IMG/VR virus record: IMGVR_UViG_3300025131_000121
Span: 1-39,860 of that record
Reading direction: 5' to 3' (one strand)
DNA length: 39,860 nucleotides
From: a virus
Part shown: positions 621-6,201 of the stretch, in pieces
Layout: every line of letters starts with the position of its first letter
Numbering within the stretch: position 1 is the first letter of the stretch
Notes under the pieces: generated by a model
Seen by the model: only the letters and a program-made list of their open reading frames with translations
Databases searched by the model: none
What the model was told of the DNA's origin: nothing
Made by a program: the position numbers and the translations under genes

Positions 621-704
621 ATGACTGGAATTGTATTTTTATTGGTCGGAATTTTAGTTGTGTTTATGGCTTTAGAAATCAACTTTCCGAGAGACAGTAA
701 ATAG
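621..704 (+). CDS. 27-aa single-pass membrane peptide
   Basis: The ATG at 621 follows AGGAGG with ideal spacing, one base after the preceding TAG. The peptide is a hydrophobic helix (about residues 3-18, 'GIVFLLVGILVVFMA') with a short charged C-terminus (NFPRDSK). That is the layout of a one-pass inner-membrane micropeptide. The stop codon ends on the first base of the tRNA-like element at 704. The strong ribosome binding site and the repeated junction upstream support translation. The role is unknown; membrane micropeptides in phages can act in lysis, superinfection exclusion or host takeover, but nothing here decides between these. Confidence 0.55.
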   Translation: MTGIVFLLVGILVVFMALEINFPRDSK

Positions 705-751
705 CATAGAATGGTTCCGTATTGGGGTGGGTTCGATTCCCACCCTATGCA
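704..751 (+). ncRNA. Miniature tRNA-like element: acceptor stem plus canonical T-arm
   Basis: GCATAG (704-709) pairs with CTATGC (745-750). Between them is a perfect T-arm: GTGGG (727-731), the loop TTCGATT (732-738) with the canonical T54-T55-C56-R-A pattern, and CCCAC (739-743). Only 16 bases (711-726) replace the D-arm and anticodon arm. This is therefore not a working tRNA, but a tRNA-derived minihelix or the remnant of one. A second hairpin (GAGCA 754-758, TGCTC 763-767) follows. No gene covers 705-795. It could be a decayed tRNA, a structured RNA or processing signal, or the phage copy of an integration core, since tyrosine recombinases often use tRNA 3' ends. The sequence alone does not decide. 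Confidence 0.6.
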
Positions 752-795
752 CAGAGCAGTATTGCTCAAAACCAAAAAACGAAAGGGAAGACAAA

Positions 796-2571: not shown

Positions 2572-2631
2572 GACCGAAACAGTGAGTCATTTGACTCGCT
2601 GTCTACAGGTGAATCCTGTACTGACGAGGTC
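2572..2631 (+). ncRNA. Type II hammerhead ribozyme
   Basis: All conserved core parts are present in order. The open stem II strand GACC (2572-2575) is followed by GAAA (2576-2579). Stem III is CAGTGAGTCA (2580-2589) against TGACTCGCTG (2592-2601), with one G-T wobble. The A15.1-U16.1 pair is A2579-T2602, and the cleavage-site base is C2603. Stem I is TACAGG (2604-2609), loop TGAAT, CCTGTA (2615-2620). The core CTGACGA (2621-2627) fits CUGANGA, and the returning stem II strand is GGTC (2628-2631). Cleavage is expected after C2603. The element lies between the ArdC-like gene and the next small gene, in a gap without coding capacity. Every helix and every invariant base fits, so confidence is high, although activity was not tested. 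Confidence 0.92.
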
Positions 2632-5358: not shown

Positions 5359-6201
5359 ATGAGATTTGTATCAACAAAAAATATGTCTCGTAAGAGGTGG
5401 TTGGAACTCCGTATGAAATCTTTAGGTGCGAGTGATGCCGGTGCTATCATCGGTGTCTCAACGTACAAATCAGCGGTTGATTTGTATTACGAGAAGATAG
5501 ATGGAATTGTAGATAATGACAGTCTTCATCTAAGGTTAGGGCGTGAGATGGAACCAATTCTTCGGACTTTATTTACAGAGGAAACAGGAAAGAGGGTTCG
5601 ACAGGATAACAAAATCAGAGTTTCTAAGAAGTATCGGTTTCTATCTGCCAATCTTGATGGAGTCACCACAGGCGGAATCCCTGTCGAATTAAAAACTAAG
5701 ACACACTGGAACGGTGTGATGCCCGATCAGGATTATTGCCAACTGCACCATCAGATGTACGTTACAGGCAAGAAATCAATTTATTATGCTGTCTTAGTGA
5801 TTGGGTATCAAAAACAATTCATTGTCCAATTAATAGACAGAGATGATAAATTTATGGATGAGTTGATTGATGCTGAAATAAATTTTTGGATTGAACATAT
5901 CCTTAAAGGAGTACCACCGGAACCAGTCTCGCCAGGCGATGCTAGAAAAGTGTGGAGAAACGAAGATTTAATCTCTGAACTAGGTGGAGATGTTGTTGTT
6001 GCTGATGAAGAAGCCGAACAGATTTATAAGGATATGATTAATATTCGTGGTACGATGACAGACAATAGACATCTTCTTGAAGATATGCAGTTAAAAATTA
6101 TGGTCAAGATGCAGACGGCTACATCAATGCGTGGTGCAGATGACCTGGAATTGTTTTCATGGAAACAGTCTAAAAAAGGAAGACGTTTCCTAATCAAATA
6201 A
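5359..6201 (+). CDS. YqaJ-type phage recombination exonuclease (280 aa)
   Basis: The start is ATG 5359, with GAGGAGG 8 bases upstream; the longer frame from 5290 lacks a ribosome binding site. YqaJ/lambda-exonuclease motifs are clear: 'SLGASDAGAIIGVS' (21-34), 'GREMEPILRTLF' (61-72, E65), and the active site 'LDG...PVELKTK' with D100, E110 and K112, then 'QLHHQMYVTG' (128-137). These enzymes resect 5' strands of dsDNA, leaving 3' tails for annealing. The gene lies 13 bases before recT, the usual exonuclease-annealase pair. The length is normal for the family. Confidence 0.9.
   Translation: MRFVSTKNMSRKRWLELRMKSLGASDAGAIIGVSTYKSAVDLYYEKIDGIVDNDSLHLRLGREMEPILRTLFTEETGKRVRQDNKIRVSKKYRFLSANLDGVTTGGIPVELKTKTHWNGVMPDQDYCQLHHQMYVTGKKSIYYAVLVIGYQKQFIVQLIDRDDKFMDELIDAEINFWIEHILKGVPPEPVSPGDARKVWRNEDLISELGGDVVVADEEAEQIYKDMINIRGTMTDNRHLLEDMQLKIMVKMQTATSMRGADDLELFSWKQSKKGRRFLIK

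Follow-up and report, generated by a model that had tools for sequence, protein, structure and literature searches.

In the window, the whole 39,860-base viral contig taken from IMG/VR, a complete type II hammerhead ribozyme is located at positions 2572–2631 of the + strand, between an ArdC-like antirestriction gene and a small open reading frame (ORF). The element combines an intact catalytic core, three stems, membership in a ribozyme family, the gene-junction layout of that family and a covarying alternative helix. Its sequence places it, as an ordinary member, in a type II subfamily that is abundant in phages. We think it likely that this is a natural hammerhead, the predicted cleavage of which would split the transcript and leave hairpins at both new ends, with the downstream piece refolding in a manner that counteracts re-ligation.

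Genome setting and architecture of the element

The genes at the left end of the window, on the + strand, include ArdC (1626–2567), an integrase, a YqaJ nuclease, RecT and an ATPase; the structural genes, including those of the portal and the major head protein, are on the − strand further right. Profile matches (PF08401, PF18818 and phrog_7245) confirmed the proposed ArdC-like identity of the upstream gene, which consists of an N-terminal ssDNA-binding domain and a zincin-like metallopeptidase domain. The downstream ORF had been called a zinc-finger gene; a resemblance to zinc ribbons was indeed present, but every match fell below the Pfam cut-off (best E 1.3e-4). The gap of 98 bases between the ArdC stop codon (2565–2567) and the next start (2666) contains the ribozyme element, and a purine-rich ribosome-binding stretch at approximately 2650–2660 precedes the ORF at 2666. 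The features of this region are as follows.

1626–2567, + strand: ArdC-like antirestriction gene (PF08401, E 7e-33; PF18818, E 6e-23; phrog_7245, E 2.2e-66)
2572–2575, + strand: GACC, 5′ strand of stem II, pairing with 2628–2631
2576–2579, + strand: GAAA (G12, A13, A14, A15.1), invariant in the alignment of 67 relatives; A15.1 is A2579
2579–2602, + strand: stem III hairpin, consisting of A15.1–U16.1 (A2579–U2602) and 10 more pairs, from sequence and fold
2603, + strand: C17, with predicted cleavage 3′ of this base, from its place in the core
2604–2620, + strand: stem I hairpin TACAGG-TGAAT-CCTGTA, from the match to the family loop consensus and the fold
2621–2627, + strand: catalytic core CUGACGA (C3, U4, G5, A6, C7, G8, A9; DNA CTGACGA), from the sequence
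2628–2631, + strand: GGUC (DNA GGTC), 3′ strand of stem II, pairing with 2572–2575
2621–2633, + strand: alternative hairpin CUGAC-GAG-GUCAG of the minimum free energy fold, which sequesters the core and replaces stem II
2632–2636, + strand: 3′ tail AGCAA, identical to the family consensus AGNAA, although the tail was absent from the search pattern
2666–2863, + strand: small zinc-ribbon-like ORF of 65 amino acids, with weak profile matches below cut-offs

All invariant positions occur in the type II order, that is, GACC, GAAA, stem III (A2579–U2602), C17 at 2603, stem I, CUGACGA and GGUC, and the original prediction of a complete type II hammerhead at 2572–2631 was correct to the base. The core comprises CUGANGA, GAAA and a UH cleavage site with the A15.1–U16.1 pair, and is enclosed by helices I, II and III with closed first pairs (U2604–A2620, G2628–C2575 and A2579–U2602, respectively). 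Loops close stems I and III, and stem II is open, which is the type II permutation. The strands of stem III are CAGTGAGTCA (2580–2589) and TGACTCGCTG (2592–2601), plus the A2579–U2602 pair, with a loop of 2 nt, or of 4 nt with one pair fewer; those of stem I are TACAGG (2604–2609) and CCTGTA (2615–2620). Hammerheads cleave 3′ of C17, leaving a 2′,3′-cyclic phosphate on the upstream product and a 5′-OH on the downstream product, which here would begin at 2604.

When both strands of the 39,860-base record were searched with a descriptor for all three permutations, this hammerhead was the single match; neither a twister nor a second hammerhead was found in the window. Among 3567 Markov-matched random windows of the same dinucleotide make-up, none (0/3567) held an element as good, and a much looser descriptor gave 0.037 matches per random window. 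The fold z-score of the element is −4.07. The random windows bear on the reading that the region is only a stable intergenic hairpin region, serving 3′ protection or as an RNase III site, that resembles a hammerhead by chance, or that it is an inactive relic. Plain hairpins or a pseudoknot do occupy the same place in other phage ArdC loci, and a locus of the same clade (L205, described below) looks like a decayed hammerhead. Nevertheless, we consider this reading very improbable: (i) chance is excluded by the random windows; (ii) the full core and a stem II that joins distant segments are intact, and a plain hairpin would not keep these; (iii) the family flanks match in the covariance model R1 (described below); and (iv) no terminator-like site was found at 2572–2631 in a search for intrinsic terminators.

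Two further features were observed among the early genes. Similar ribosome-binding stretches (of the GAGGAAAAAATAGGATG type) lie ahead of several of them, at approximately 310, 607, 1610 and 2650, and in places use the TAG stop of the preceding gene; this repetition is probably what had been described earlier as a duplicated gene junction. Between genes at 704–752 (+ strand) is a tRNA-like acceptor and T-arm (GCATAGA ... GGTGGGTTCGATTCCCACC CTATGCA) without a D or anticodon arm, at which ARAGORN called no tRNA and Rfam gave only a weak, odd match.

Relatives of the element and the subfamily covariance model

Rfam gave no hammerhead match to the window, either at the gathering score or at E ≤ 10; the element thus did not reach the gathering score (37) of RF02276 (Hammerhead_II). 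Therefore, relatives were sought directly by pattern. The first pattern, GACCGAAAC-N24-54-CTGANGAGGTC, was found in at least 120 stretches of viral contigs, in which the descriptor identified at least 191 type II hammerheads, at least 154 of them distinct. This pattern fixes the core and stem II and leaves stems I and III, the loops and the flanks free, so that pairing in stems I and III constitutes independent support. A second pattern with stem II GGAC/GTCC was collected separately, its counts likewise being lower bounds; stems I and III form in 152 of 156 of its matches (among the matches listed). After clustering, the two pattern scans of viral contigs together gave at least 289 distinct elements.

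An alignment of 67 relatives was used to train a covariance model (R1), with the window excluded from training. In this alignment, 98.2% of cells are paired and 351 double changes occur, versus 90 in shuffles; stem II is 100% paired, with covariation in 3 of its 4 pairs. R1 matched the window element end to end, including the tail AGCAA, with 59.9 bits (E 9.8e-14), a score that is inflated because the training set was collected with a pattern whose 19 positions were taken from the window. In 16 loci, R1 found 57 elements and Rfam at its gathering score found 1, and one further locus scanned with R1 gave two matches. Because Rfam misses nearly the whole subfamily (1/57 found), its cut-off is not a fair test of the window element, and an Rfam-only annotation of the window genome would overlook it. 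Rfam was also rejected as an arbiter on the grounds that it gave no hammerhead match in phage PaP3, which has a published hammerhead with a variant core. R1 did not find the PaP3 hammerhead either; thus, the lack of a match from either model is weak evidence. The original prediction had named a covariance score below the family cutoff as one part of what would speak against it; such a score was observed, with no match even at E ≤ 10, and the support came instead from a model of other phage hammerheads. The type II reading is upheld by the identity of the core, by R1 trained without the window and by strong covariation in the family.

An exact search with GAAACAGTGAGTCA was discarded as a route to relatives, as its 70 stretches had no convincing hammerhead at the matches. 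No close nucleotide relatives were found in phage records, and no identical loop plus stem I was found elsewhere.

Layout of the subfamily at gene junctions

Members of the subfamily usually have a 4-bp stem II, a 5-nt loop I that follows GTNANNC, and a tail that is typically AGNAA. The window loop (the pentaloop UGAAU) and tail (AGCAA) fit this consensus, and neither was used in the search. Position N7 is C in 81/154 and U in 69/154 relatives (among the matches listed), so the CUGACGA of the window is normal. The published type II consensus has a pseudoknot between loop I and the tail (PMC3088659). As a feature of the subfamily this was rejected, since complementarity was observed in 24/133 elements versus 19.5 by random pairing; in the window, UGAAU has no complement in the tail AGCAAAUGAAACC, and the pseudoknot of the published RF02276 consensus is absent.

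The position of these ribozymes relative to genes is stereotyped. Among the matches listed, 109 of 154 elements start at −1 to +4 nt from the upstream stop codon, with 57 overlapping the stop by one base, and the next gene usually starts 15–35 nt beyond the element. The window element is arranged in the same way, starting +4 nt from the ArdC stop and ahead of the next ribosome-binding site, with 34 nt to the next ATG. In some contigs, arrays of 5 to 8 such ribozymes in a row punctuate runs of small genes.

On this basis, the function that we favor is the separation and end-capping of messages. Cleavage after C2603, as predicted, would occur during transcription and split the early transcript. 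The ArdC message would then end in the 11-bp stem III hairpin, and the downstream message would begin with the stem I hairpin as a blunt 5′ end bearing a 5′-OH. The upstream piece would depart, stem II being only 4 bp, and the downstream core would refold into CUGAC-GAG-GUCAG. The new 5′ end would then carry two hairpins side by side, and this refolding would work against re-ligation, so that in effect the cut could not be reversed. The net effect would be longer-lived, separate, hairpin-capped messages, with separate control of the stability of ArdC and its neighbor. Such a role fits the stop–ribozyme–start layout apparent in the sequences of many phage junctions. Against this explanation, the record has a single hammerhead and hence no array.

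Hammerhead 5′-OH and cyclic-phosphate ends can be ligated, and the ribozyme could serve a different kind of RNA processing, for example the generation of circular or re-ligated RNAs or the disposal of read-through transcripts, rather than the separation of two useful messages. Of all the readings this appears the most remote: with one ribozyme copy in the record, no RNA of unit length can be released, and the strict stop–ribozyme–start spacing suits message separation. Spliced or circular products have been considered, and none were detected (PMC3088659).

An alternative helix between the core and the tail

In the minimum-energy fold of the window element, CUGAC (2621–2625) pairs with GUCAG (2629–2633) and stem II is not formed. 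The energies of the alternative and hammerhead folds are −27.1 and −26.8 kcal/mol, respectively, a gap of 0.3 kcal/mol. These secondary-structure energies give the alternative hairpin a small advantage over the catalytic fold, and some transcripts may therefore stay uncut. After the predicted cleavage, the downstream RNA of the window folds into two hairpins.

The core–tail complementarity of the subfamily (NUCAG with CUGAN), which is present in the window, follows the class of stem II. Among the matches listed, the tail begins with AG, giving UCAG, in 85 of 107 elements with a stem II ending in UC, and in 40 of 182 otherwise (p 4e-22); some elements without a UC-ending stem II carry AUCAG instead. 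Such a dependence of the tail on the stem II class would not be expected of an accidental core–tail pairing. Within the first 12 bases of the tail, UCAG is present in 15/44 non-GGUC elements, compared with 0/44 in each control stretch (upstream and further downstream), and in the second sample the corresponding values are 22/121 versus 3 and 1 in the controls (both among the matches listed). Position N7, unpaired in the hammerhead fold, covaries with its tail partner: among the matches listed, the C/U counts are 57/21 with G and 4/19 with A in the first sample (Fisher p 3e-6), and 7/0 with G and 1/17 with A in the second (Fisher p 2e-5). Within the GGUC class, C7 accompanies the AG tail (Fisher p 4e-5, among the matches listed). 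Part of the strength of these p-values may reflect shared ancestry; across stem II classes, the association keeps the same direction.

The same data raise the question of whether the element is a real hammerhead that acts mainly as a bistable switch, in which the CUGAC/GUCAG pairing is the off state, formed in competition with stem II, and in which the predicted cleavage depends on transcription speed, on the terminating ribosome at the adjacent stop, or on a ligand or protein. The 0.3 kcal/mol between the two folds, the enrichment of TCAG at the tail start of non-GGTC elements in both samples, the covariation of N7, and the many elements that overlap the upstream stop codon (the last three among the matches listed) are all consistent with such a switch. 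Nevertheless, a hairpin formed purely after cleavage explains the same pattern, core–tail pairing is not favored by energy in the uncleaved fold of 33/67 family members, and part of the association could come from shared ancestry; we regard the switch as unlikely to be the main function. For the subfamily as a whole, we offer only as a speculative suggestion that a selected core–tail helix might turn gene junctions into bistable, timed self-cutting switches. If so, the switch here would adjust the time for which the ArdC message remains attached to its neighbor.

Comparison with known hammerheads

Hammerheads that are active and flank genes, ardA among them, have been published from phages and prophages (PMC3088659), and their arrays are likewise known (PMC3088659; PMC10085705). 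Comparison of the window element with known systems revealed that (i) the type II hammerheads of RF02276 (Perreault et al. 2011, PMC3088659) have the same permutation with an open stem II, the same core and cleavage site (here predicted) and the same location at phage and prophage junctions, whereas the Rfam model has a 2-bp stem II and the window element has 4 bp and the UGAAU pentaloop, and the published loop I–tail pseudoknot contrasts with a complementarity not above random in the window subfamily; (ii) the Agrobacterium tumefaciens prophage hammerheads near ardA (PMC3088659 Fig. S2) also adjoin an antirestriction gene and were tested for cleavage, but form clusters of multiple copies with ArdA, in contrast to one copy with ArdC in the window; (iii) phage regions rich in ribozymes, in which hammerhead and twister occur together (from gene-association studies reviewed in PMC10085705), similarly have ribozymes adjoining phage genes and one another, and the twister-P1-like RNAs found here lie 5′ of ArdC in L097, L098, L126 and L127, with none found in the window; and (iv) the pseudoknot-containing hammerhead of a crystal structure (PMC11300833) shares the core and the chemistry, but relies on a pseudoknot helix, of which the window subfamily shows none.

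What seems to be new is the size of the subfamily outside Rfam, its lack of the usual pseudoknot, the repeated occurrence of hammerheads, in several permutations, at the ends of ArdC genes, and the core–tail helix. In the open-licence literature, no description of the window subfamily or of ArdC with a hammerhead was found. What phage hammerheads do is an old question, which this subfamily makes directly testable because its layout and covarying core–tail helix give definite predictions for the ends, the product-trapping bases and the stability of the messages.

Hammerheads at ArdC loci of other phages

The antirestriction context had been singled out as noteworthy. The ArdC setting is genuine and is seen again in other phages. 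The majority of genes next to ribozymes of the subfamily, however, are small, unrelated orphans, which makes ArdC a recurrent but minor neighbor. ArdC as the defining partner was rejected, there being 1 ArdC and 1 ArdA among the 114 upstream genes in the collected set.

Hammerheads directly 3′ of ArdC were found in L097 (type II, RF02276 35.9 bits), in L098 (variant core) and in L277, a locus found without using ArdC. The ArdC proteins of L097 and L098 are nearly identical, and their stem III differs by a compensatory change from CCGCC/GGCGG in L097 to CCACC/GGTGG in L098. In L001 and L002 (both 5947–6001), a type I hammerhead-like element with an A–A mismatch at 10.1/11.1 is directly 3′ of ArdC, in the place of the type II element of the window, and L186 has a type I-like element with a one-base insert 3′ of ArdC. 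Since type II, variant and type I forms are found there, the permutation at one and the same ArdC gene end varies between phages. In L127, L176 and L407, hammerheads lie 5′ of ArdC. Most ArdC loci are without a hammerhead, and in L084, whose ArdC is the nearest relative (66% identity), the same place holds no more than a plain hairpin; therefore, ArdC can function without the ribozyme.

Several other elements were observed at these loci. Hammerhead-like elements at L186 (2690, 3677 and 5208) and 3′ of ArdC in L098 have one additional U, placed after A9 and before stem II; recurring in unrelated contigs, this form is possibly a tolerated core variant. In L205, which belongs to the ArdC clade of the window, the segment 4931–4989 located 3′ of the ArdC stop has an intact CUGAUGAGACAG and has lost GAAA, and its sequence is probably that of a decayed hammerhead. 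Twister-P1-like ribozymes below the Rfam cut-off are located 5′ of ArdC at L097 2548–2600, L098 2958–3010, L126 3849–3911 and L127 3451–3511, near the ArdC start in three cases and further upstream in L127; some ArdC genes may thus be bounded by ribozymes on both sides. Finally, in L003–L012, which represent a different ArdC clade, a covarying H-type pseudoknot (GGYC-A-GCNGGG ... GCC/GACC ... CCCNGC; for example, L004 5835–5865) lies just 3′ of the ArdC stop, ahead of the next ribosome-binding site.
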